Position numbers and translations under genes: made by a program
The notes under the pieces: model-generated
What the model saw: the letters and a program-made list of their open reading frames with translations, nothing else
Database searches by the model: none
Told to the model about the DNA's origin: nothing
Shown: in pieces, positions 222-26,152 of the stretch
Layout: each line of letters opens with the position of its first letter
Position numbering within the stretch: the stretch's first letter is position 1
DNA from: a virus
Reading direction: 5' to 3' (one strand)
Virus record (IMG/VR): IMGVR_UViG_3300032032_000021
Span: 1 to 26,152 of that record
Length of the DNA: 26,152 bases

Positions 222-1109
222 ATGAGTTCAAGGTTAGTTGAATTAAAACAAGAAGCTGAATGGAGAAAATGTCAGCGAGATGAAAAATATTTTTTACAGA
301 ACTACTGGCACATTGCTCACCCTGCTCACGGTCGTATTCTTTTTACTTTACGTGAGGCTCAAGAAAAAGCTATCGAAAACTGGGCCGCAAATAGGTATTC
401 GCTTACCCTAAAAGCCCGACAAATCGGGTGGAGCACCCTCGTAGCAGCCCACCAATTCTGGTTAGCGTTCTTCCATCCAGATCAAAACATTATTGATTTA
501 AGCCGTACAGAACGTGAAGCCGTGTTGCTGTTGCGTAAAACAAAATACGGTTATCAGCATTTGCCGAAATGGATGGTGGAACGTGGACCTAAGTCTTTGG
601 TTGAGCATCAGCAACGGATGGGATTCGACAACGGAAGCCAGGTTACGTCGATGCCTTCTGCTTCAGATCCTGCCCGTGGTGAATCAGCGACACTTATTGT
701 GGTTGATGAGTGGGCATTCTTACCGAATGCAGAGGAAGCGTGGGCGAGTATAGAACCCGTGGCCGACGTGGGAGGCCGCATTATCGGCCTCTCCACTGCT
801 AACGGTTCAGGAAACTTTTATCATCACCTATGGGTAGGAGCATCCACGGGAGCAAACAAGTTTGAACCCATGTTTTTTCCTTGGTCTGCTACCGAAGACA
901 GAGGAGATTCCTGGTACCAAGAAAAGGTTGAGTCAATGCTGCCGTGGCAGCTTGCTCAGGAGTACCCGTCAACGCCCGAAGAGGCGTTCGTTAAGTCGGG
1001 TAATCCTGTTTTTGATCTCGATATTTTAGATGAGATGTCAAAACATACAACCTTTGGGGAAACGGGATACCTGAATAGGGTTGGGTCAGCTATAGAGTTC
1101 AGAACATGA
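222..1109 (+). CDS. Terminase large subunit, ATPase domain ORF
   Basis: This 295-residue protein is the motor half of the DNA-packaging terminase, which pumps DNA through the portal into the prohead using ATP. Visible motifs are a deviant Walker A, KARQIGWST (residues 64-72), of the KARQ-x-G-x-ST type common in phage terminases. A Walker B, TLIVVDEWAF, has catalytic D162-E163, and the coupling motif GLSTANG follows at 189-195. The PSTPEEAF motif typical of these ATPases lies near residue 250. The ORF stops at TGA 1107-1109, exactly where the nuclease domain of a normal 500-residue terminase would begin. That domain follows in the next frame with an ATGA overlap. I chose ATG 222 (preceded by GGTGAG) over the TTG at 213. 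No small subunit is recognisable. Confidence 0.93.
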   Translation: MSSRLVELKQEAEWRKCQRDEKYFLQNYWHIAHPAHGRILFTLREAQEKAIENWAANRYSLTLKARQIGWSTLVAAHQFWLAFFHPDQNIIDLSRTEREAVLLLRKTKYGYQHLPKWMVERGPKSLVEHQQRMGFDNGSQVTSMPSASDPARGESATLIVVDEWAFLPNAEEAWASIEPVADVGGRIIGLSTANGSGNFYHHLWVGASTGANKFEPMFFPWSATEDRGDSWYQEKVESMLPWQLAQEYPSTPEEAFVKSGNPVFDLDILDEMSKHTTFGETGYLNRVGSAIEFRT

Positions 1110-1777
1110 GTTTTGAAGTCTGGGAAAACCCAGATTCCCGTAGTGCCTACGTGATGGGAGTGGATACAGCAGAAGGACTAGGCCACGGTGACTACAGCGT
1201 CATACAAGTCTTAAACGTAGGGACGGGAAACCAGTCAGCTATCTGGCATGGACACATAGCACCCGATCTTTTAGCTGAAGAAGTCATGGCAGTAGGAATG
1301 TGGTACAGAAATGCTCTGTGTTGTGTTGAGTCAAACAACCACGGCCTAACTACCATCACCGAACTGCGTCACTCGGGTTACCCCAACCTGTTTCGGAAAC
1401 GTCAACTCAACAATGTAAACAACAGAATCAGCCAAGAATACGGTTGGAAGACAACAAGAACATCTAAACCTCTAATGATCGATGATCTAAGTTCTGCTCT
1501 ACGAAACAGTGAACTAAAAATTAATGACCGCAACACTGTCGGGGAGTTACGCACTTATGTGCGTAACGAACGAGGTTCCATGTCGGGTTCCCCCTATGAT
1601 GACCGAGTTATGGCATTAGCGTTAGCTAATCAGATGCGTAAATATGCTTACGAACCTGAATATGCTCCCGAGGTTAATGACTACTGGACTGTTGATTGGT
1701 TTGCTCGTTTAGCAGGAGCTTCAGAAGAATCCTCGCCAAACAACATCGGATCATATACAGTCCGTGGGACACGGTAA
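1106..1777 (+). CDS. Terminase large subunit, nuclease domain ORF
   Basis: This 223-residue protein matches the C-terminal RNase H-fold nuclease half of large terminases, which cuts concatemeric phage DNA. Acidic residues expected at the metal site are visible: D20 in MGVDTAEG, E75 in VESNNHG and D165/D166 in PYDDRVMALALA. It starts with ATG 1106, overlapping the TGA of the ATPase ORF (ATGA), so translation is probably coupled. An AGAG stretch about 8 bases upstream is the only ribosome binding signal. Together the two ORFs have the usual length and domain order of one terminase, so this is either a genuine two-polypeptide terminase or a -1 frame disruption. All key residues are intact on both sides, which argues against decay. 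Confidence 0.9.
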   Translation: MSFEVWENPDSRSAYVMGVDTAEGLGHGDYSVIQVLNVGTGNQSAIWHGHIAPDLLAEEVMAVGMWYRNALCCVESNNHGLTTITELRHSGYPNLFRKRQLNNVNNRISQEYGWKTTRTSKPLMIDDLSSALRNSELKINDRNTVGELRTYVRNERGSMSGSPYDDRVMALALANQMRKYAYEPEYAPEVNDYWTVDWFARLAGASEESSPNNIGSYTVRGTR

Positions 1778-7058: not shown

Positions 7059-8648
7059 ATGTCAAAGCGTGCTGGTTTCAAACTCGAAATGCTGGAAGAT
7101 TTCAGCGGCGGGTTGAACCTGCGTTCAGACCAGTTCAATCTGGCTCCGAACGAAAGCCCAGATATGTTGAATGTTGATGTTGACCCTCGTGGTGGCATCA
7201 AAATGCGTCTTGGCGTGGTTAAAAGAAATCAGACTGCTTTAGCTTCATCTGTTACGGGTTTAGGGCAGTTCACTCCTGATGGGGGAACTGCCCGAGTTAT
7301 TTGTTCTTACGGTACAGTTGTAGCTCAGTCTGCTTCTGGAGCTTCAGGCGATTTTGCGACAATGAATGGGGTTTCCGTCACGGATGGCAACCGCATGTAC
7401 GGGCAAACTACGAACTCAAAGTTTTATGGAGTGTCAGGTGATGCAGCGTCATTTGTTTATGACGGAACTACGGCTTCTAACCTTGCATCAAATATTAACG
7501 GGTCTGCTGGTAATTACCCAATAGCGAAATACACCTGTCATTGGAACAATCATGCATGGGTTGCTCACACCAAAGAAGGTGGAACTGCTCACGCTAACCG
7601 TATTCGTTGGTCAAAGGTCGATGATCCAGAAACATGGCGAGAGTTCGACTATATCGATGTCAATGTAGGAGAACGAGGCGATGAAATGTCTGCTCTCGTT
7701 CCTTATGCTGACCGTTTACTAGTATTTAAAACAAATAGCGTGCATGCATTATTTGGCAACAGCACTGAGTCATTTCAAATGGTGCCGTTAAGCCAAGACG
7801 TTGGTTCTGTATCGATGTCGTCTCCTGTGTCTACCCCGTATGGAGTGTTCTTCTGGTATGACCGCCAAGGTGTTTGGGTATACAACGGCGAAAGATTTGT
7901 GTGGGTGTTTGAGAAATTACAGCCAGCCATTGATGATGGCAGGTTGCAATTTACTAATCCCCCACAGCTTGCTTGGTTCAAGAACCGTCTTTATGTCTCA
8001 GTGGATTGGTCTGAAACGTCTGAGCTTTTAACCACTCGTCGTGTGCTTGTTTATGACCCGACTCTTGGTTCTGGTGGAGCTTGGACGATGACCGATATTG
8101 ACGCAAATGTTTTGTTGACGTTTGCTCCACCGAATGACCAACAAACTCTTCTTGGGGGTTGTTTAACAAATACTGGTCGAGTTGTAGAGATGGAACAAGA
8201 ACGCCAAAGCGATTTTTATGGGACTTCGACTTCCCATATTGTGAGTTCGTACACGACTTCGTGGATGGTGGGGAAAAACCCTATCGTTCGTAAACGTTGG
8301 GGGAAGCCCCGTATTGTCACGTCGTCCGACTCGACTGTCGCTTTAACTGCGAAACTGTATACCGATTACGATACTGCGGATTTCAAGAAATCTATGCCGT
8401 TTGGTGTTCAAACAAGTGGTGCAGTTTCGTCAACTTGGGCTTCAGGACAAGGACCCACTGGTGGGACGGGTGTTTGGGATACAGGTGTGTGGGCTGGTGA
8501 ACCGAATACGACGATCACCCAGATTGAACGTTTGCCTACACTTGGGACAGCGAAGGCTATACAAATGAAGGTTGAAGGTCCCGTTAATGATGAGGCTTGG
8601 GAAGTGAATGCTATGGCGTTTACTTATTTACATAGGAGATTGCGTTAA
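7059..8648 (+). CDS. Tail nozzle-like beta-propeller protein
   Basis: This protein of 529 residues is probably the tail nozzle that extends the adaptor, as gp10 of P22 or gp12 of T7 do. The N-terminus, FSGGLNLRSDQFNLAPNES (residues 16-34), is characteristic: a tail hub or propeller protein that begins by threading its neighbour. Many short beta repeats follow (IRWSKVDDPETWREFDYIDV, GVFFWYDRQGVWVYNGERF), as expected of a propeller. ATG 7059 lies just after the adaptor stop with GGGAG at 7048-7052. The TTG at 7056 would add one residue. Absence of any tail-tube gene after it supports a short tail. Confidence 0.75.
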   Translation: MSKRAGFKLEMLEDFSGGLNLRSDQFNLAPNESPDMLNVDVDPRGGIKMRLGVVKRNQTALASSVTGLGQFTPDGGTARVICSYGTVVAQSASGASGDFATMNGVSVTDGNRMYGQTTNSKFYGVSGDAASFVYDGTTASNLASNINGSAGNYPIAKYTCHWNNHAWVAHTKEGGTAHANRIRWSKVDDPETWREFDYIDVNVGERGDEMSALVPYADRLLVFKTNSVHALFGNSTESFQMVPLSQDVGSVSMSSPVSTPYGVFFWYDRQGVWVYNGERFVWVFEKLQPAIDDGRLQFTNPPQLAWFKNRLYVSVDWSETSELLTTRRVLVYDPTLGSGGAWTMTDIDANVLLTFAPPNDQQTLLGGCLTNTGRVVEMEQERQSDFYGTSTSHIVSSYTTSWMVGKNPIVRKRWGKPRIVTSSDSTVALTAKLYTDYDTADFKKSMPFGVQTSGAVSSTWASGQGPTGGTGVWDTGVWAGEPNTTITQIERLPTLGTAKAIQMKVEGPVNDEAWEVNAMAFTYLHRRLR

Positions 8649-9997
8649 TGGCAACTTTTACTGCGCCTAACACGGCTGTAGCGGGTAACGCCATCGTTGC
8701 CAGTGAACACAATACTAATTGGACTTATTTGAAGAACTGGTTAGAGGGTGTTCCTGGCCAGACTGCTACTTATCCTGGGGTTATACAGGGTAACGGTGGT
8801 TCTATCGATGGAACTTTAGGAGTCACTGGGATTTTAACTGCGGGGGGCTATTCCTCTGCTGGGACTTTGACTAACACAGGAACTGTTTCCCTTGGAGCCA
8901 CAAACCACCTGTATCTGAACAGCACTCAACATAGCGTTATTGGTTTAAGTACTGGTACTGATATCAATGCTCAGACTGCTGGAAGTTTCTTAAAGGATCT
9001 GAACTATCGAGCGAACTTCACAAGTGCTGGTCCTGGTACTAACACGCATCAGCTTTCTATGGGGTCAGACGTAGCTTCTGGCGCAGATGCAGGAAACTAT
9101 TTATCCGAGAGTCACCGTTATTCGGTGTACTCTCGTCGTGCTGGCGACGGATGGAGTCCTGGCGGCGGCGCTGCACATCCAGGCCGTCCTTCTTCCGAAT
9201 ATCGTTTAGTTATCAACGGTTCAATGGCGATCCGTGGAGACATTATTGGTTATTCAGCTTTCAACGAAAGCGTGCCTGGAACTTCAACTGATTATTTAGA
9301 AGGTGAAGGTACTCGTATTAATTGCCAGTGGTTGAACGTCGCAGCGAATGTTGACGTAAATGGCTACATCAGGGTGATGACCAAATACGATCATGCTCGT
9401 TTGTTTATGGGCAATGATTACGGCCAGCCTGGTGAGGATTGGTTGGAATGGAACGACAACATTCATTCAGGCGGCGGATCACCGCAACCTGGATTTGGGT
9501 TTCACGTAAATGGTTCTTCTTCTGTAAATGAAAGCGGTCGTATTCTTTCCATCTCGAAAGATTCGAGCAACTATGTAGATGTTCGTGCCCCTGTCCAAAA
9601 CAGCATTGGTGGTTCGACTACTGCTGGTTGGCCGACGATCTCAGGAACCACAGCAAATATTGATACAAGCACTCAACGCCTTGGGGTTGCTTCTTCTTCT
9701 ATCCGTTTCAAAGAAGATGTAGAAGATTTAGAAACAGAAGAGAACTGGGACAAATTGCGTTCGTTGAAGCCACGCACGTTCCGCTGGAACCGCGAAGTAG
9801 CTGACCGCTCTAGCTTGGATTATGAAACTCAGACTCCAGAGCTTGGGTTTATTGCTGAGGAAGTTCACGAAGTGGCACCTGATATGACGTTGTATGACGC
9901 TGAAGGTGACCCGATTGTGTATCGAGAGAAGTCGATGCTTGCGATGCTAGTTAAAGCAGTGCAAGATATTGACAACAGGTTAGGGGCGCTTGAGTAA
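8648..9997 (+). CDS. Tail fibre with C-terminal S74 self-cleaving chaperone
   Basis: This 449-residue fibre protein has a shaft and head region of short beta repeats (residues 1-340), followed by an intramolecular chaperone of the peptidase S74 type (about 341-449). The SSIRFKED segment matches the cleavage site, with S350 and K355 as the likely Ser-Lys dyad. [14 protein letters not shown] and the final coiled coil ([18 protein letters not shown]) complete the domain. Such chaperones trimerise the fibre and then cut themselves off. The gene overlaps the nozzle stop (TAATG) and has AGGAGA at 8634-8639. It is the likely first receptor-contact or fibre-base protein of the adhesin cassette. Confidence 0.88.
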
Positions 9998-10644
9998 TGC
10001 CCACAGGTGCAACATACATTCAGGACGTAGGAGCAGGAACAAACCTTATTTCCTATGCTGACGGTTTCCGTTATCAAGGAACATGGTCATCTGGTACCTC
10101 CTACTCTGTTGGTGATGTTGTTGAATACAACAATGGTTCCTATGTTGCCCGTACAGCGCATTCTGGGCAAACCCCAGCTTCGGGTAGCAGCTATTGGCAA
10201 GTAGTTTCTAACGCTGGTACTGCTGGTGGGCCTGGTCCTGCAGGGGCTTCTGGACCGCAAGGCCCAACTGGGCCAACAGGTCCAGCAGGAGATACTGTTC
10301 TTAACGGTGTTGGTGACCCACAAGGTGTTACGGGTCAAGACGGCGACTTTTATTTGAATGTATCCAATAACTATTTCTTTGGACCGAAAGCCAACGGCGT
10401 GTGGCCTGTTGGCTTCAGCCTCATTGGGCCTCAGGGAAGTACTGGCCCAACGGGACCAACGGGACCTACTGGCCCGTTAGGTCCTCCTGGTGGGCCTCCT
10501 GGGCCTACAGGGCCGCAGGGGCCACAAGGAATTGTTGGTCCTGCGGGACAAGCTAGTGGTTTAGTTAATGGAGGTATTCCTGCCTCTAACGCTAATGGAG
10601 ATTACGGAGGCGTCACACCTATTGACGCAGGAGGGCCAACCTAG
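9997..10644 (+). CDS. Collagen-like fibre protein with a carbohydrate-binding-type module
   Basis: This 215-residue protein has four visible parts. An N-terminal module ([20 protein letters not shown], about 26-70) resembles CBM5/12-type chitin-binding folds. A short Gly-X-Y block follows at 78-99. A linker with [19 protein letters not shown] (113-131) is of the type commonly placed between collagen-like blocks. A longer Gly-X-Y block (144-184) comes next. The tail ends with the [14 protein letters not shown] motif seen at the end of many phage tail proteins. Gly-X-Y repeats would form a trimeric stalk. It starts within the previous stop (TAATG), consistent with one translationally coupled cassette. 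Confidence 0.85.
10228..10293 (+). repeat. Gly-X-Y coding repeat, block 1
   Basis: Seven consecutive collagen-type triplets (GPG, PAG-phase then GPQ/GPT) are encoded here, residues 78-99 of the fibre protein. The nucleotide repeats are imperfect, with the unit approximating GGNCCNACN. Confidence 0.8.
10426..10548 (+). repeat. Gly-X-Y coding repeat, block 2
   Basis: About thirteen collagen-type triplets are encoded, mostly GPT, GPQ and GPP (residues 144-184). A single extra glycine in GPPGGPPGP (163-170 region) breaks the strict three-residue register, which would kink or locally unwind the triple helix. Confidence 0.8.
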
Positions 10645-16488: not shown

Positions 16489-19400
16489 GTGGCAATTCCT
16501 CCTCCTCCACGGCCTCAAAACCGTGGGAATATGATTAAAAATCTAAATATAGATTGGGGGAATAAGTCTTCTTCTGCTCCTTTAGCTGGGTATGTTGCTC
16601 CTGCAAAAAAGGGTGGAGGGATATTTGATATTCCTGTCCTTGGACAAATTATTGACGCTATTGATACGCCTCGTGCTGCCATTGTTTCGGGTATCAAAGA
16701 GATAGGTGACATCTTTGATGCTGATAATGATTTCTCGATTGGAGAATTTGTTCAGCAAACCCGTGACAACATCATGATGGGTGAGGTGTTGCGGGATTGG
16801 GACGTTGATCTTCCTGGGCCTTTAGATTTTGCTGTGGGTCTTGGGTTGGATATTGCTTTAGATCCTTTGACTTATATGGCTGGTGCTGGGCTGTTGGCTC
16901 GTGGCGCTAAGGCTGCTGATGTGGCGAATGGTTTACGAAAGGCTGCAAAGCTGCCACAAAATGCTAATAGAGCAGCAGATATGTTGAAGGCTGCACAAAA
17001 AGTTGACCGTACTGGGTCTGTGTTGTCTGCAAGTAAATACTTGGACGACATAGGTATTTCGTCTGGTGCTCGTTTTACAATTCCTGGGACTGGCAAGATT
17101 GGTCGCACGATTATTGAGAAGCCGTTACGAAGAATATTTCCTGTTGTTGGCAGGAAGTTAGATGACATGCGTGTCAGGCAGTTGTATACCGATACTGCTG
17201 CTGGTCCTGGGGGCATGTTTCGGTGGGGTGATGAAGCGGATCGTGCTCTTGATTTAACTAATCCTAATAATCAGAAGCTTGTTAGGAATAGGGTTCGGCA
17301 GTTGCGAGGTGAGGGACCTGCTGTTGCTGTGAAGCAAGGTTCTGAGGCTGATAAAGCAGCGAGACTGGCTATGAAGATGGCAGTCGAGATGCCTGGAAGT
17401 GCTCAGATGTTAGCGAAGATTCCAGGGAGTACTGCTTTTGTTGCTTGGGCTGCTTCTGGTCCTGGCAAAGCATTTGCATCGGTTGCGGATACAAAGATGG
17501 GTCAGGCGTTTGGTAAAGCGTTTTCAACGAACGTTGATATCAACCAAATGATTCGTTCTAGCAATATAGAGGAACAGGTTACTGGTCGTTGGGTTCAGCG
17601 TATTGGTTCGCAAGCTAATACGAGGTCGTCAAGGTTTGCTTCGGTAGCAAAGAATGGGGCAGAGAATCTTAAACGTGCCGCTGATGATGCTGGTGTTGAT
17701 TTTGACGAGTTAATGTTGTCTGCTGAAAACGATCTTCCTTATTTGTTTTCGCAGGGTAGTGACTTTGGTATTAACCCTAAGCATATGGCTTTAAGGGAAC
17801 AAGCTCGGGAGTATTTGGACAGTTTGCGGACGATGGTTAATGAGGCTTTGCCGTACAGCGACGATTTAGATGGCGTTGTTGGTGAGCTTTATTTGATGCG
17901 TTATATCGGTAAGGAAGGCGCAGAGAAGCTTGATGAGCTTGGCCGTTTAAGTGGCAAGCCGTTGCCAAAGGGTGTTGCTGCTGATGACCTGATTCAGGGT
18001 AATTCTTTTCATAAGCGTAATTGGATTACGCCTAAAGGAATGAAAGATCTTATTAGGGAGAACTTAAAACCAGGTGTAAAGCCTGATATTAGTATCGAGA
18101 AGCTGATTGATGACCTAGGTGTTGATCCTTCTAAGACTGGTGATGCTTTAGAAGATGCTTTGTTGAAAGCTATTGACGATGCGGCTGACGATGGTTTCAG
18201 AGTTACTGGTACAGATGGGCATGTATACACCAACAAAACGCATGTTGGAACGTTAAAAGATATTGAAGCTGGCTCTATTAGAGATCAGCTTTCAAGAATG
18301 GGTAAAGAAGCTCACGGTAGCGAGTGGGTTGACATATTCGATACGGATATGACTAAAGCTTTGACGAGCTACATAGATTCTCATTCTCGTTTTATTCGTT
18401 CTCAGTATGTTGTTGATGGTTTAGCGCAACGTGGAATTATTGTTCGTGGCGCTAATGGTCAGTTGAGTCGTGCGGCTGCTAATCGTTTGACATCTTCGAT
18501 GAATAGAGCAGGTAAGAAACTTAGTAATGCCCAAATACTTAAAGATAGGTTAGAAGCTACTAAGACTGCTCGTGATGAGAAGATTGCTTTTTACACAGGT
18601 GAGGCTGGTAAGGCTGGAAGTAAGACAAGTCAACGAGCAGCTACTAAAGCTGCTCTTGAAGTAGCCAGACTTGAAGGAGAGCTAAGAGCTATTTCTTCTG
18701 TTATGGACGCTATAGCTAATGGTTCAGGGATCGAGGGTTTGACTAACGATGCTTTGGCTCTTATCCAACCTGGCGCTCAGTTCGATCTTCGTAGAGGTGT
18801 TGGATACATAAGTCAGAAAGTGAAGCAAACTTCTGAGGAAGTTGCTCGTTTACATAATGCTCGTAATGATGCTGTTGAGTTGATTCATTCTTTAGATGAG
18901 CAGATTGCTCAGGTTGAAGAGATGCTTAAACGCATTGAAGCTGTCAACAATATTGATCCTGAGCTTCAAGGGTTCTTGCCTTTGTTTGATGGTTATAAAG
19001 AGATCCAAGATTCAGTGAATATTATGCGCGAGGGTTTGCGTGCATATAAGTCCACGTTTATTAACCGCATGTTGGATGACGTTACGGTTCGTGCTGCTGA
19101 CGATTTAGAAGATTTCTTAAATGGGATGACAGGCGATGGCTTGTTTGATTTCGCTAAGAACGGTAAGCGGCTTATAAGTGCTGCTCGTAAAGATGAGCTT
19201 GGTCGGATTTCTAGACGGTTGGGTCAGATCTTTAAGGGTAATCCTAAGTGGGAGAAGTGGCTGGAAGAGATGCCTGAATTGGCGGATCTTAAGCACGCTA
19301 TTGAGAATCTTGATGAAGGAGACATGGGGATTCTTGCTCGTCTTGAGCGTTACAGACAGATCAAGGGCGCTGATGCTTTGATCGATGGGAAGTCTCCTAT

Positions 19401-21405
19401 AGGTAACAATATTGCTGAACTTTTGTCTGATATAGGTGGGGCGGAACGCAGGTTGTTGAATGCGAAGTTGCGTGAGATAGAAGAAATTTTAAGACTTGGC
19501 TTAAAAGCTGATAGAGGTGTTCCTTATAAACCATTAGCAGGTCAGGTTTCTGATGAAGCAACTGAAGCTTTGCAAGAAACGTTTGATCTTCTTGGCGTAA
19601 AGTTTGAAGAGCTTGAAGTAGCTATGAGCAGTGCTCAGAAGAAGCTTTTGGAAACAGAAGCTTATTTAGCGGAGCGACGTACTTACTGGCGAGGAAAGAA
19701 ACAACTCACTGAAAGCGAGTTGTCTGAAGTCAGCGCAACAATGGTTCAGCAACAAAGAATCATTGACGAATTGAAATTAGAAAAGATGCGGTTAATGGAT
19801 TCAGATAGGACAACTATCCGAATGAGTGCTGCTGATTCGCAGCAAGCTGCTGCTAATGAGCTTCGCAAAGTACGCAACCTTCACAATTTGTCAGATGTTT
19901 ATGGTGGTCGGTTAAACGATTACATGGTTAATATGTCTGGGCTTGGCAACGCCCAAGATGTATCCAATAGAACAAACAATTTGTTGCGTGGATACAGTCT
20001 TGTAGACGGGGCAGGAGAAGGTTCGGTTGAACTGTTTTCTGCTGCGGTTCAGGCTGCTGCTAGAACTGCTGATGTCAAAGCGATGAGTGACTTTATGAAG
20101 AAGTACTCAACGTTTGTGAACTGGTGGAAAGCTCAAGCTGTTGCTACTCCTGGGTTCATTATGAGAAACATGATGGGTGGCATGTGGATTAACAACCAGA
20201 TTGCTGATGTGCCTATGAGTATGCACACAAGAGTTTTGGGTATCCGTCGTGCTGCTGCTAAGGCTGCTCAGGAGGGTGGCCGTAAAGGCGACATTGCTTA
20301 CGGTTTGGAACAGCTTATTGCTAACGGGAAACCTGTTGGTTTGAAGAAGTTGGGTATTCCACAGCTTCAGTCTGCAGTTGATGTGGGTGAGCTTGAAACG
20401 TTCTTGACGTGGTATCGGACAGGGATGGCTAGCAGTGGTCAGGTATCTCAGGAAGTTAGATCTTCGTTGGATGCTATTGGCGGTGGAAAAGGTTCGTGGA
20501 AACCGTGGCAAGCAGAGTTTGCTCCGTTTGCTAAAGTTCGTGAGTTAAACCAAGAAGCTGAGTTTATGTTGCGTGGTTCAGTAGCGCATCACACTGCTAT
20601 GACTGGTGGAAGCATCGATGATGCTTTCGAGCTTGTAAATAAGTATCACTTTGATTATGCGAATCTGACTCAAACTGAACGCAAGATGAAGCAGGTTATT
20701 CCGTTCTGGACTTGGCAGAAAAACATTTTGCCTGTGCTTGTTGAGTCGATTGGTAAGAAACCTACTGCTTGGGGTCGGTTGCAGCAGGTGAAAGGCGAGT
20801 TGGAGTTGCATTCTCCTGAAGAAGGGCTAGTGCCTAGCTGGTTCGGAGAGAATATGGGTATACGTTTGCCATTCAATATTGGTGGGAACAGAGCGTATGC
20901 TATTCCTGATTTGCCGTTCCGTGATCTTGCTAAATGGTCTAAAGCTATTGAAGGTAAAGAACCGTGGCGACCTTTAGCGGAAAGCGTTTTTCCGATGTAC
21001 AAGCTCCCGATAGAGCTTGCGTTTGGCAAAAAATATTTTGGCAATATCCCGTTCACTGGTCGATATCAACAAGCCCCTAACTCTTATGGAAAGATTCCTG
21101 GGCTTATGCCAGCCCTTGGTGCGCTTGGTTTTGCGAAGAAGAATCGTAAAGGGGAATGGAAAACAACTGACCAAACTCTTTATGTGTTAGATCAGTTCAT
21201 GCCGTTGTTGGGTAGGGTGCGAAGGGTTCTTCCTAATGAAGCTCCTAAACAAGAACGAATGCTAACTACTTGGCTTTCAGTGTTTCTAGGTACGAACATC
21301 CGTCCTAACACTCCTTCAACTAAACGTAGTGAGCTAATTCGTATGCAGAAAGAACTCGCTGAAGAGCTTCGCGATAAGAAAGATATAGAATTCCGCAAGG
21401 TCTAG
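16489..21405 (+). CDS. Giant internal virion protein (1638 residues)
   Basis: This is the largest gene. GTG 16489 follows TAGGAGTTAAA. The N-terminal region is Ala- and Gly-rich with amphipathic helices and no signal peptide. Coiled-coil segments are clear near residues 700-830 (VEEMLKRIEAVNNIDPELQG) and 1040-1135 (AQKKLLETEAYLAERRTYW). A recognisable C-terminal stretch occurs near 1217-1410: TPGFIMRNMMGGMWINNQI, then HFDYANLTQTERKMKQVIPF and WTWQKN. Similar motifs appear in very large structural proteins of tailed phages. It is probably an injected or core protein like T7 gp16 in role, but I see no transglycosylase or other catalytic motif. Function is inferred from size, position and helical character. 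Confidence 0.7.
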   Translation: MAIPPPPRPQNRGNMIKNLNIDWGNKSSSAPLAGYVAPAKKGGGIFDIPVLGQIIDAIDTPRAAIVSGIKEIGDIFDADNDFSIGEFVQQTRDNIMMGEVLRDWDVDLPGPLDFAVGLGLDIALDPLTYMAGAGLLARGAKAADVANGLRKAAKLPQNANRAADMLKAAQKVDRTGSVLSASKYLDDIGISSGARFTIPGTGKIGRTIIEKPLRRIFPVVGRKLDDMRVRQLYTDTAAGPGGMFRWGDEADRALDLTNPNNQKLVRNRVRQLRGEGPAVAVKQGSEADKAARLAMKMAVEMPGSAQMLAKIPGSTAFVAWAASGPGKAFASVADTKMGQAFGKAFSTNVDINQMIRSSNIEEQVTGRWVQRIGSQANTRSSRFASVAKNGAENLKRAADDAGVDFDELMLSAENDLPYLFSQGSDFGINPKHMALREQAREYLDSLRTMVNEALPYSDDLDGVVGELYLMRYIGKEGAEKLDELGRLSGKPLPKGVAADDLIQGNSFHKRNWITPKGMKDLIRENLKPGVKPDISIEKLIDDLGVDPSKTGDALEDALLKAIDDAADDGFRVTGTDGHVYTNKTHVGTLKDIEAGSIRDQLSRMGKEAHGSEWVDIFDTDMTKALTSYIDSHSRFIRSQYVVDGLAQRGIIVRGANGQLSRAAANRLTSSMNRAGKKLSNAQILKDRLEATKTARDEKIAFYTGEAGKAGSKTSQRAATKAALEVARLEGELRAISSVMDAIANGSGIEGLTNDALALIQPGAQFDLRRGVGYISQKVKQTSEEVARLHNARNDAVELIHSLDEQIAQVEEMLKRIEAVNNIDPELQGFLPLFDGYKEIQDSVNIMREGLRAYKSTFINRMLDDVTVRAADDLEDFLNGMTGDGLFDFAKNGKRLISAARKDELGRISRRLGQIFKGNPKWEKWLEEMPELADLKHAIENLDEGDMGILARLERYRQIKGADALIDGKSPIGNNIAELLSDIGGAERRLLNAKLREIEEILRLGLKADRGVPYKPLAGQVSDEATEALQETFDLLGVKFEELEVAMSSAQKKLLETEAYLAERRTYWRGKKQLTESELSEVSATMVQQQRIIDELKLEKMRLMDSDRTTIRMSAADSQQAAANELRKVRNLHNLSDVYGGRLNDYMVNMSGLGNAQDVSNRTNNLLRGYSLVDGAGEGSVELFSAAVQAAARTADVKAMSDFMKKYSTFVNWWKAQAVATPGFIMRNMMGGMWINNQIADVPMSMHTRVLGIRRAAAKAAQEGGRKGDIAYGLEQLIANGKPVGLKKLGIPQLQSAVDVGELETFLTWYRTGMASSGQVSQEVRSSLDAIGGGKGSWKPWQAEFAPFAKVRELNQEAEFMLRGSVAHHTAMTGGSIDDAFELVNKYHFDYANLTQTERKMKQVIPFWTWQKNILPVLVESIGKKPTAWGRLQQVKGELELHSPEEGLVPSWFGENMGIRLPFNIGGNRAYAIPDLPFRDLAKWSKAIEGKEPWRPLAESVFPMYKLPIELAFGKKYFGNIPFTGRYQQAPNSYGKIPGLMPALGALGFAKKNRKGEWKTTDQTLYVLDQFMPLLGRVRRVLPNEAPKQERMLTTWLSVFLGTNIRPNTPSTKRSELIRMQKELAEELRDKKDIEFRKV

Positions 21406-23509: not shown

Positions 23510-23969
23510 CGTTCCAATGCAGGTATTCTGAGTGTATTGAGAAGAACAATTTGTTGTTATCGAAGTTTCCTACAGGAATGTCTTCGGTGTTAATGATTGT
23601 CATAAGTTCTCTGTAACTCAAATCTGCATAGTTTTGGCGTGACCGTGACCAAATCCAAAACCACACATCCAGTTCGGACGTGTCCCACCACTGTAGCGCA
23701 CGAATTTTATTAAACTTTACTTTAAGCATTTCGTCGCCACCCATACCCATTACTTCTACTAGGCGAGGGAACCCGCCGTTAGATAACTGTATGTAGTCGG
23801 GAGTAGCTGCAAACGTTTGAGGTATTTGATGTAACTCGAAACCGTCAGGTCGATTAAAGCCGAACCGTTCCCAGTTTCGTTCTCGTTTCTCGAACTCGCC
23901 TTCAGCTTCGTCACCCATAGACTTATATCGTTCTGCATATGGACGTTTGTGGAACTCGGGAGCTTTCAT
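23502..23969 (-). CDS. PD-(D/E)XK-like nuclease candidate
   Basis: This 155-residue protein has TPDYIQLSNGG (56-66), then RLVEVMG (69-75) and MLKVKFNKIRALQWWD (81-96). The order D58 - E72 - K83/K85 and the surrounding hydrophobic strands match the reduced PD-(D/E)XK core found in small phage nucleases. The usual lysine two residues after the glutamate is replaced by M74; a downstream lysine may take its place. It sits next to the RusA resolvase gene, with which it overlaps by ATGA behind an A7 run, so it probably works in recombination or genome processing. It could instead be structural or inactive. Confidence 0.55.
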   Translation of the reverse strand: MKAPEFHKRPYAERYKSMGDEAEGEFEKRERNWERFGFNRPDGFELHQIPQTFAATPDYIQLSNGGFPRLVEVMGMGGDEMLKVKFNKIRALQWWDTSELDVWFWIWSRSRQNYADLSYRELMTIINTEDIPVGNFDNNKLFFSIHSEYLHWNGG

Positions 23970-24304
23970 TTTTTTCTCCCTACTATTCGGTAAACCATGA
24001 TGTCGTCGTCATAGGCGACGCCATTCAATGCGTCCTCAACTGCTTTCAAATAGTTAGTTGTATCGCCACGAAGTTTCGTGTCGCTCTCATCTAGTTCAGA
24101 GATAGTTACCTGTGTCCGTTTCGATGTGAACACACAGCTAATAGATATAGGTCCCTCAAATTTGGGGCCATCATAATGATTGCGAATGTGTTCTTCGTGT
24201 TCCAGTGTGGACTTAGGAGTATACGTTCTGCCTCGTGCGAATCGAGGGCGACCTTTAACCTTTGGTTTCCCAGGAACAGTGAACTTATATGAGCGTTTAG
24301 TCAT
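23966..24304 (-). CDS. RusA-type Holliday junction resolvase
   Basis: This 112-residue protein has the RusA family layout: FTVPGKPKVKGRPRFARG near the N-terminus, then GDTTNYLKAVEDALNG (80-95) and YDDDIMVYR. Residues D81, K87 and D91 match catalytic positions of RusA (D70, K76, D91). The place of D72 is T83, a change also found in other phage relatives. The enzyme cuts four-way DNA junctions made during phage replication and recombination. ATG 24304 with CGAGGT upstream was chosen; an upstream start at 24385 would overlap the primase gene heavily. It ends at TGA 23966-23968, immediately after an A7 run. Confidence 0.85.
   Translation of the reverse strand: MTKRSYKFTVPGKPKVKGRPRFARGRTYTPKSTLEHEEHIRNHYDGPKFEGPISISCVFTSKRTQVTISELDESDTKLRGDTTNYLKAVEDALNGVAYDDDIMVYRIVGRKK
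23969..23975 (-). promoter_or_regulatory. Candidate -1 slippery heptamer (A7) before the RusA stop
   Basis: On the minus strand the RusA gene ends AGA AAA AAA TGA. The last seven bases before TGA are AAAAAAA in the phase A AAA AAA, a canonical -1 slippery heptamer. The following gene starts in exactly the -1 frame (ATGA). Slippage would join RusA to the nuclease candidate, giving a product of about 267 residues. Purine-rich GGGAG lies directly upstream. Confidence 0.4.
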
Positions 24305-25220
24305 GGTACCTCGTTGTTTGGGCAGCCTTAGAAACAATATTTTGTAACTGTTTCTCTCTATCTGCTCTATCTGTGAACTTTCCAACCCTCTCGTCTAGCC
24401 GTCGCAGCCAGTCGATAGCTGCATCTTCTGAATAGTCTTGCCAAAGAAGACTGCTAGCAAAAGCGTACATCGCTTCTGATCGATCCGAGAACTCTGTTTG
24501 TTCCCAGATCGATCTTGCATTCCCCTTAAAGTTGGCATCTTCTCTGTTGCCTGGTTTGTATTGAGGGGCTTTAGGTTCCGTTGCCTCGAAGAATCGAAGC
24601 AACGAGCGAAGCAACCCTGGCGAAGTTCGTGATGCCCATGCAGCGTCAACAAATTCTTCAAGGGAGAAGAAAGAATCTGTTTTCGATGGATCATAAACTT
24701 CATGGCGGCCAGGGTTACGGTGCTCAGGGTAAGGCAAACGCAAACAGTTGCCTAGAGCACCTTCGTTCAATGATGTTTGTTTCGGATACACCTCTTTGGT
24801 GGGGACATCCACGACACGACATGCACCTGTCAGAGCTTTACGTGCCACGTTCGCTGCTACTGGTTCAGTTAAATAAACCCAAACGTGGTAGCCCTTACTC
24901 TTAGAAGTTTCCTTCCAGCTTTGTATCCCTGTCTTCTCCAGAAGAGCGATCAGGTTATCTGCATGGACGCTGGAGTTTTCTCCATCGTCAAGGTCCACTG
25001 CACACCAGTTGACCATCCATACACCATTACGTTTCCATAACGGATATACCCCAAGTGCAAGTTTGCTATTGAGATGTTCGTCTATGTACTGAAGGTATTC
25101 TTCTCCGTAGCCAAGAGCTACGTTTCCGTCTTCTTCTAACGGATGCACCCATTCTGTTACGTCGGCTAACGCTCCTCCTTCGTGAAGAGAAGCGAACCTT
25201 TCAAGAGTTACTCCACCCAT
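24297..25220 (-). CDS. Archaeo-eukaryotic-type primase (AEP; TOTE-like)
   Basis: This 307-residue protein shows AEP primase motifs. Motif I is WCAVDLDDG, with D76 and D78 as metal ligands. Motif II is SKGYHVW (108-114) with H112. Motif III lies in EVYPKQ (143-148) and GNCLRLPYPEHRNPG (157-171). The VYPKQ...GN-x-LRLP pattern is typical of the primase domain of the TOTE and primase-polymerase type. It would make primers for phage replication, beside the helicase with which it overlaps by 13 bases. A C-terminal helical region (about 225-307) may bind DNA or helicase. The ATG 25220 start is plausible but has only weak ribosome binding context. Confidence 0.82.
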   Translation of the reverse strand: MGGVTLERFASLHEGGALADVTEWVHPLEEDGNVALGYGEEYLQYIDEHLNSKLALGVYPLWKRNGVWMVNWCAVDLDDGENSSVHADNLIALLEKTGIQSWKETSKSKGYHVWVYLTEPVAANVARKALTGACRVVDVPTKEVYPKQTSLNEGALGNCLRLPYPEHRNPGRHEVYDPSKTDSFFSLEEFVDAAWASRTSPGLLRSLLRFFEATEPKAPQYKPGNREDANFKGNARSIWEQTEFSDRSEAMYAFASSLLWQDYSEDAAIDWLRRLDERVGKFTDRADREKQLQNIVSKAAQTTRYHD

Positions 25221-26152
25221 CTGTCATCCCCAGGAATATCGTTCTCATAATATTCTCGCACAAGACCACAGTTCGGGTCCATGTAATAGTCAATGGGTGG
25301 ATCTGTGACCTGACAAGGTGGCCTCTTGTTTTTGCAGAGGTCAAGTGAGACAGAGACTGAATGTATTCTTCTTTCTGCGTCAGAAAGCTTTGGGTCATCT
25401 CTCCGTCGGAAAACATTGAGTTGCAGGATTGCGTATTCATCAGCATTGAATTTGCCGTCGTCCATTCCTCTTGATGTGCCCCGAGTTGAGCCTTTGCCTG
25501 ACTGGTGGATTAACCCAACGGGCAGGTTCTCTGTCTCTGCCCATTCCTTTAATCCTTTTAACACTGTTGATACCCCCTCGTATCCCGATGCTCCTGGGAG
25601 TTGTTCGAGGAAGTCAACCATTACGAACCGTGGCTTATGTTGCCAGTAATCTTCGCATTCTCTCATTGCGTTGCTCATGTCGTTAAACGACAGAGCATTA
25701 GGGAAGATTTTGATTCGATCAAGGAAGCCGTACTTGGCTTCTTGGATTTCGTTTATGACTGTTTGGTCTTGCGTCCGAAGAGCTTCTTCCACTTCAGCAA
25801 GATTTCGTTGATATAAGAGTGCATATAGTTTGGATACAACCAGGATCTCGGGTTCATCAGGAGTATAGATCACTCCGTAAAAGTCTGGATCTTCTAATAG
25901 GTTGCGTGCCATTGAGGAAAGCAGCACCGCAGATTTACCGCTGTGTGCTCTGCCTGTTACGACGAGTACGTCGCTAGGCCAGACTCCTCTCATGCGACTA
26001 TCGATGTCTTGTAGTCCTAGATGGAAGCAGTCGTGGCTGCCTTTGGCGTATTCAACCCATCGGTCTACTGCCTCGGATGTTGGCTTAAAGAATTTGTACT
26101 GTGGCTCTCCCTCGGGGAGATCGATACCCGCAAGTCGGGCATCGATCTCCTC
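25208..26152 (-). CDS. DnaB/RecA-type replicative helicase (5' partial)
   Basis: The frame is open to the right edge; 314 residues are visible and the start is outside. The RecA-type core has Walker A GRAHSGKS (67-74), a putative catalytic TPDEP (about 97-101) and Walker B RFVMVDFLEQLPG (around D180). LIHQSGKG (about 214-221) is the motif with the sensor Gln, typical of SF4 DnaB-family helicases. The likely role is unwinding DNA at the phage replication fork with the AEP primase downstream. The N-terminal primase-binding domain, if present, is not in the window. A strong hairpin lies at the window end within its coding sequence. Confidence 0.85.
   Translation of the reverse strand, partial: EEIDARLAGIDLPEGEPQYKFFKPTSEAVDRWVEYAKGSHDCFHLGLQDIDSRMRGVWPSDVLVVTGRAHSGKSAVLLSSMARNLLEDPDFYGVIYTPDEPEILVVSKLYALLYQRNLAEVEEALRTQDQTVINEIQEAKYGFLDRIKIFPNALSFNDMSNAMRECEDYWQHKPRFVMVDFLEQLPGASGYEGVSTVLKGLKEWAETENLPVGLIHQSGKGSTRGTSRGMDDGKFNADEYAILQLNVFRRRDDPKLSDAERRIHSVSVSLDLCKNKRPPCQVTDPPIDYYMDPNCGLVREYYENDIPGDDRWVE
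26114..26152 (-). other. 15-bp inverted repeat inside the helicase gene
   Basis: GGAGATCGAT (26116-26125) is the exact inverse of ATCGATCTCC (26141-26150). Inside these, CCCG (26127-26130) pairs with CGGG (26136-26139). The single A/C mismatch on the plus strand becomes a G-U pair in the minus-strand message, so that RNA can form an unbroken 15-bp stem with a five-base loop. TCTCCC (26106-26111) can compete for one arm. The structure lies in codons for IDARLAGIDLP. Confidence 0.6.

Follow-up and report, generated by a model that had tools for sequence, protein, structure and literature searches.

Separate genes for the predicted ATPase and nuclease of the large terminase in a clade of viruses

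In the IMG/VR virus record IMGVR_UViG_3300032032_000021, analyzed here over its positions 1 to 26,152 (26,152 bases, hereafter the window), the large terminase (TerL) is encoded not by one open reading frame (ORF) but by two plus-strand ORFs, an ATPase gene followed by a nuclease gene. All 176 close relatives that we scored are split at the same place. From these genes, we conclude that the TerL of this clade of uncultured phages is very probably a two-gene enzyme, in which coupled translation would yield two polypeptides that assemble noncovalently into one motor. That the ATPase (with its linker) and the RNase H-like nuclease are predicted from conserved, separate genes with intact catalytic residues is the firmest part of this conclusion.

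An initial annotation of the window had described a terminase divided between two overlapping ORFs, with every ATPase motif in the first and the three acidic nuclease positions in the second, and both descriptions held. The ORF map places the second gene in the -1 frame relative to the first, with an ATGA shared between them, and the two products match the Pfam families Terminase_6N and Terminase_6C, respectively (Table 1). LKARQIGWST, the Walker B sequence VVDE, and STAN, which we take to be the coupling motif, are encoded by the first ORF, while D20, E75, and D165/D166 are encoded by the second. The ATPase half exceeds the Terminase_6N cut-off (E value of 6.9e-7, 29.6 bits against a cut-off of 22), has PHROG terminase matches, and is matched by gp17 profiles at E values of 7e-34 to 1.4e-32, identifying it as a P-loop ATPase domain. 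The Walker A lysine of this half is displaced: in the alignment, a Trp takes the place of the GKTT lysine of T4 gp17, and the sole Lys of the motif stands at its front. The nuclease half falls just under the curated cut-off of Terminase_6C (E value of 1.9e-4, 21.9 bits against 22.6) and has both PHROG terminase matches and profile matches to RB49 and T4 gp17. An AlphaFold2 model of this half alone (mean predicted local distance difference test [pLDDT] score of 80.6) is that of a predicted terminase nuclease, with T4 gp17 as its best match in the PDB (E value of 3.3e-11), followed by the RB49 and G20c nucleases. Motifs and model together identify this half as a predicted RNase H-like nuclease with all three acidic positions in place.

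Alignment of the two products to a full-length terminase, a check that the initial annotation had proposed, gave profile matches to residues 133-346 and 409-576 of T4 gp17 (chain 3cpe_A). The domains, their order, their motifs, and their folds are those of gp17; the difference is that gp17 is a single chain, whereas in this clade the domains are encoded as separate polypeptides. The break lies at the domain linker, as had been suggested. When the fused relative L162 was modeled with AlphaFold2 (mean pLDDT of 82.8, predicted template modeling score of 0.69), the split position aligned to a loop just before strand 323-328, the first strand of the nuclease, where block pLDDT ranges from 50 to 84. 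Downstream (3') of the two halves, the window continues with portal, scaffold-like, and major capsid genes.

The junction was also compared among related phages, another check proposed at the outset. Relatives were fetched using each half, alignments, a divergent member, and a fused relative, and were taken as the best 80 of 373, of 579, of at least 594, and of 553 confirmed relatives in four scans, so that the clade is sampled. From an initial 350 loci we removed 142 duplicates, some of them contigs that more than one scan had retrieved, and set aside 19 in which one half was missing, as loci were scored only if they held both. Among these 19, 12 are distant loci that are probably fused, the nuclease part lying within a single ORF of 554-663 codons, and 2 more are distant, with a nuclease-containing ORF that runs off the locus. 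The rest are L191, with an N-terminal match only; L164 and L005/L194 (one contig), whose sequence starts with the nuclease part; and L337, with too little of the N-terminal half. The 189 nonredundant loci that were scored comprise 172 split terminases, 4 whose split halves flank an additional gene, and 13 single ORFs, so that 176 of the 189, like the window, have the two domains in separate ORFs. The split loci are mutually close, with differences of no more than 28% among N-terminal halves and 40% among C-terminal halves (153 rows), and they come from many metagenomes, with 67 different metagenome ids within one list of 80 loci. Divergence of one half tracks that of the other (r = 0.82, n = 153), and these distances gave no evident sign of reassortment of halves, with only the largest residuals inspected.

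The fused relatives stand outside this group: none of the 13 single ORFs exceeds 57% identity with the window. The nearest that we found are MW202803.1 (L159) and the IMG/VR loci L162 and L163, which, unlike the window, encode TerL as one ORF of 560 (L159) or 571 (L162, L163) codons, N-terminal part first. Between L159 and the window, identity is 57% in the ATPase part (52.6% and 47.3% by tblastn) and 42% in the nuclease part, and MW202803.1 is also the best match of the major capsid protein of the window (37.7%). The corresponding values for L162 are 43% and 38%, and the ten other fused relatives are only about 22 to 25% identical to the ATPase queries. Two split contigs, L270 and L271, are binned as metagenome-assembled genomes of Acidimicrobiaceae (TMED189) and of a Euryarchaeota archaeon; they may be phage contigs in those bins, and the host is not fixed by these matches.

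Both halves have been conserved, and the initial annotation likewise saw decay in neither. LKARQIGW[ST]T is present in 155 of 156 full-length N-terminal halves (the exception, L271, has unread residues there) and VDEWA in 155 of 156 (VDEWG in L259). In the 173 full-length C-terminal halves, G[VI]DTAEG (163 GVD, 10 GID) and GSPxDD are invariant, and VE[SA]NNHG is found in 172; in L270 this motif is VESNXHG, which retains the Glu, so the middle acid is present in all 173. The ratio of nonsynonymous to synonymous substitution rates (dN/dS) was 0.046-0.085 for the N-terminal half in eight of eight chosen relatives and 0.026-0.047 for the C-terminal half in five of the eight, synonymous sites being saturated in the other three. 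Synonymous change was high throughout, so these ratios are rough, but at such values both sampled halves are, by their codons, under strong purifying selection.

The junction itself varies in its arrangement but keeps the second start. In the 176 close relatives, the genes overlap by 4 nucleotides in 107 (ATGA in 89, GTGA in 18), by 7 in 58 (including 13 that read [AG]TGTTGA), and by 1 in 4 (TAATG); they lie 2 nucleotides apart in 3 and are separated by an insert in 4. A stop/start overlap is therefore present in 169 of the 172 junctions without an insert, and all 172 keep a start codon for the second gene (ATG in 134, GTG in 38). Pairing with the anti-Shine-Dalgarno sequence ahead of this start was examined as supporting evidence at 116 junctions, where it averaged -4.71 kcal/mol, compared to -2.68 kcal/mol in random synonymous recodings (set means of -3.17 to -2.27 kcal/mol over 200 recodings) and -2.15 kcal/mol at same-frame positions inside the ATPase gene. 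Pairing at or below -4 kcal/mol was reached by 66% of the junctions, compared to 24% of recodings. Read across these relatives, the joint has evidently been rewritten repeatedly while the second start was kept, and with its conserved stop/start overlap it has the features of a translationally coupled gene pair and behaves like an ordinary gene boundary.

Four loci (L022, L033, L037, and L138) have a gene of 276-281 codons between the halves, with a stop/start overlap on both sides. The three that were scanned (L033, L037, and L138) are PAPS-reductase-like, matching phrog_424 at E values of 2.6e-56 to 3.3e-45, with a Pfam PAPS_reduct match under its cut-off. L022 is 96% identical to L033, and the forms of the insert gene are about 51 to 54% identical. 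In close relatives, this gene is present or absent at exactly the TerL boundary: over 300 nucleotides on either side, L033 is 97.0% and 98.7% identical to the insert-free L032, and L138 is 94.7% and 95.3% identical to the insert-free L034.

These observations leave little room for explanations in which the split is only apparent. A single-base sequencing or assembly error, named by the initial annotation as the main alternative, would need only one base in one contig, and recent decay of a normal gene was weighed together with it. Error is refuted as the cause by the recurrence of the split with differing stop/start arrangements across many metagenomes, in 172 of 176 close relatives (the other 4 having an insert), and strong purifying selection on both halves argues equally against decay, so that error or decay now has next to no chance of being correct. 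Programmed -1 frameshifting would yield a fused TerL of full length in addition to the ATPase half. In its favor, all 172 of 172 junctions place the second frame at -1 relative to the first, and in the window that frame is open for 9 codons ahead of its ATG. However, overlaps of 1, 4, and 7 nucleotides and a gap of 2 all produce a -1 frame, so the constant frame is not independent support. Of the 172 junctions, 16 have no sense codon separating the second start from the nearest preceding stop in its frame, and 29 have a single one; in these 45 a shift into that frame would be very difficult, and the second gene is evidently reached by initiation. Classical slippery heptamers occur in only 3 of 172 junctions, at no shared place (nonclassical slippery sites were not searched for), and the last 60 nucleotides of the first ORF of the window contain none, as originally noted. 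A frameshift gene with a conserved slippery site in a doubly open overlap was considered and is not what these junctions resemble. The four loci with a whole gene at the joint are ones where frameshifting cannot join the halves, and enrichment of Shine-Dalgarno-like pairing ahead of the second start also points to initiation. Taken together, we regard frameshifting as very unlikely.

Two further possibilities accept both genes but deny a two-chain motor. The halves could be rejoined after expression by intron splicing, trans-splicing, or a split intein, and there is a precedent in the Jug phage terL, which is split by introns with RNA-read evidence of splicing (PMC12363816). In 172 of 176 relatives, however, the halves are separated by no sequence or by only 2 nucleotides, and no Rfam family, introns included, reached threshold in six sources (the window, L033, L037, L138, L143, and L057). 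The N-terminal half ends about 30 residues after a conserved GNPVF, and the C-terminal half begins at a nuclease strand, leaving no room for intein halves of typical size (no split-intein profile search was made). Rejoining is accordingly harder still to credit than frameshifting. Alternatively, the halves may not cooperate at all, the ATPase packaging alone as in phi29, whose ATPase has a vestigial nuclease domain (PMC9410871), and the nuclease serving an independent role. The nuclease residues are intact, and the genes stay neighbors, with an insert in only 4 of 176, although scored loci had to hold both halves. The correlated divergence of the halves also fits cooperation, but shared ancestry alone would give a correlation. 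On balance, we consider noncooperating halves unlikely.

The best reading of the joint is therefore coupled translation of two genes, and here the suggestion in the initial annotation stands; like that annotation, we infer that both products belong to one motor. Ribosomes finishing the ATPase gene would reinitiate at the overlapping start to make the nuclease half, and the two polypeptides would come together noncovalently at the portal, forming the equivalent of a single-chain TerL motor. Several points weigh against this scheme. At the junction of the window itself, predicted pairing is weak (-2.4 kcal/mol), and as the junctions are related sequences, the pairing test overstates their independence. 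T4 gp17 split at the linker is reported to keep both activities but to lose translocation completely (PMC3012670, PMC9958956), which means that a working split motor needs a compensating contact. The gp17 domains have a complementary interface of >1000 square angstroms (PMC3012670, PMC9958956), and the clade could compensate if its domains docked more strongly, if an additional adaptor bridged them, or if its motor could run without a tether. It is conceivable, although we hold this only tentatively, that ATPase and nuclease/translocation domain work untethered, so that the nuclease may bind, leave, or differ in stoichiometry from the ATPase ring.

How the split arose is less clear. Probably, although with modest support, a single-chain T4-type TerL was broken once in an ancestor and the frame relation has stayed the same since; such a break followed by local rewriting fits the constant frame relation. 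In a tree with nearer T4-type outgroups, 28 rows (25 split, 3 with inserts) formed one group with support of 68/89. Support for a single origin is weak, as that grouping recurred in 70% of 200 bootstrap trees, and a previous tree that used very distant fused TerLs as outgroups placed the fused L159 and L162 among the split rows and recovered the fused rows as one group in just 9% of bootstrap trees. No homing endonuclease was found at the junction to account for the split, the sole insert there being the PAPS-reductase-like gene in 4 of 176 relatives; a mobile element may have been present at the break and since been lost.

Phage enzymes in two pieces are already known, as is an intron-split terL. 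The T4-like genes-in-pieces include NrdA of Aeh1, split by mobE, gene 43A/43B of phage 25, and T4 topoisomerase gene 60, with Aeh1 NrdA and 43A/43B reported to be active (PMC2988022). The TerL genes described here resemble these cases in making one enzyme, as we propose, from two polypeptides of adjacent genes. They differ in that the published breaks are tied to homing endonucleases or an untranslated insert, whereas 172 of 176 relatives have no insert and neither a homing endonuclease nor an intron was found at the TerL break. The Jug phage terL is likewise in pieces but is intron-interrupted and spliced (PMC12363816), unlike the sources searched here with Rfam. Two-part polymerases, which are different enzymes, include the RNA polymerase of HTVC019P group III pelagiphages (PMC6811365) and the split DNA polymerases of OM43 phages and two Acinetobacter phages (PMC10580990, PMC10219094), the DNA polymerase cases carrying an inserted ORF or HNH gene. 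A jumbo-phage survey called the two-domain TerL universal (PMC7824862), and within the open-access literature searched, where subscription papers are mostly absent, we found no description of a lineage that stably carries TerL in the form of two genes.

In a leading T4 model, the nuclease domain is moved through a hinge (PMC3012670, PMC9958956). A natural lineage in which that connection is broken makes it testable whether the motor needs a covalent tether or only a docking surface, and if the motor is indeed untethered, single-chain hinge coupling would not be a universal requirement for packaging double-stranded DNA. Annotation is affected as well, as TerL serves widely as a marker of phages and members of this clade encode it by two genes, each a partial terminase.

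Table 1. Features of the two terminase genes in the window
Feature	Position	Strand	Basis or remark
TerL ATPase half, 295 residues	222..1109	+	ATG at 222, alternative TTG at 213; stop TGA at 1107-1109
Walker A-like motif, LKARQIGWST	408..437	+	Alignment to T4 gp17
Walker B and catalytic Glu, LIVVDEWAF	693..719	+	Motif, relatives
STAN, presumed coupling-motif region	792..803	+	Kept in 156/156 full-length N-terminal halves
Weak Shine-Dalgarno-like stretch before second start	1093..1105	+	Pairing energy
ATGA stop/start overlap joining the ATPase and nuclease genes	1106..1109	+	ORF map, junctions of relatives
TerL nuclease half, predicted RNase H-like, 223 residues	1106..1777	+	Terminase_6C, PHROG, and gp17 profiles; AlphaFold2 model
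First catalytic Asp codon, D20	1163..1165	+	G[VI]DTAEG
Second catalytic acid codon, E75	1328..1330	+	VE[SA]NNHG
Third catalytic acid codons, D165 and D166	1598..1603	+	GSPxDD

Some features elsewhere in the window deserve mention. The start of the ATPase half (222-224) overlaps, as CATG, the possible start (ATG 223-221) of a divergent minus-strand ORF that runs off the contig at position 2 and had no Pfam or PHROG match. A plus-strand gene at 16489-21405 encodes a 1638-residue protein with no Pfam family above cut-off. An archaeo-eukaryotic-type primase (Pfam AEP-TOTE, E value of 3.8e-17) is encoded on the minus strand at 24297-25220, near genes for a DnaB-like helicase (25208-26152) and RusA (23966-24385). 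The gene for a Peptidase_S74 chaperone protein (8648-9997) is followed by a plus-strand gene (9997-10644) that combines collagen-like repeats with a CBM_5_12 carbohydrate-binding module.
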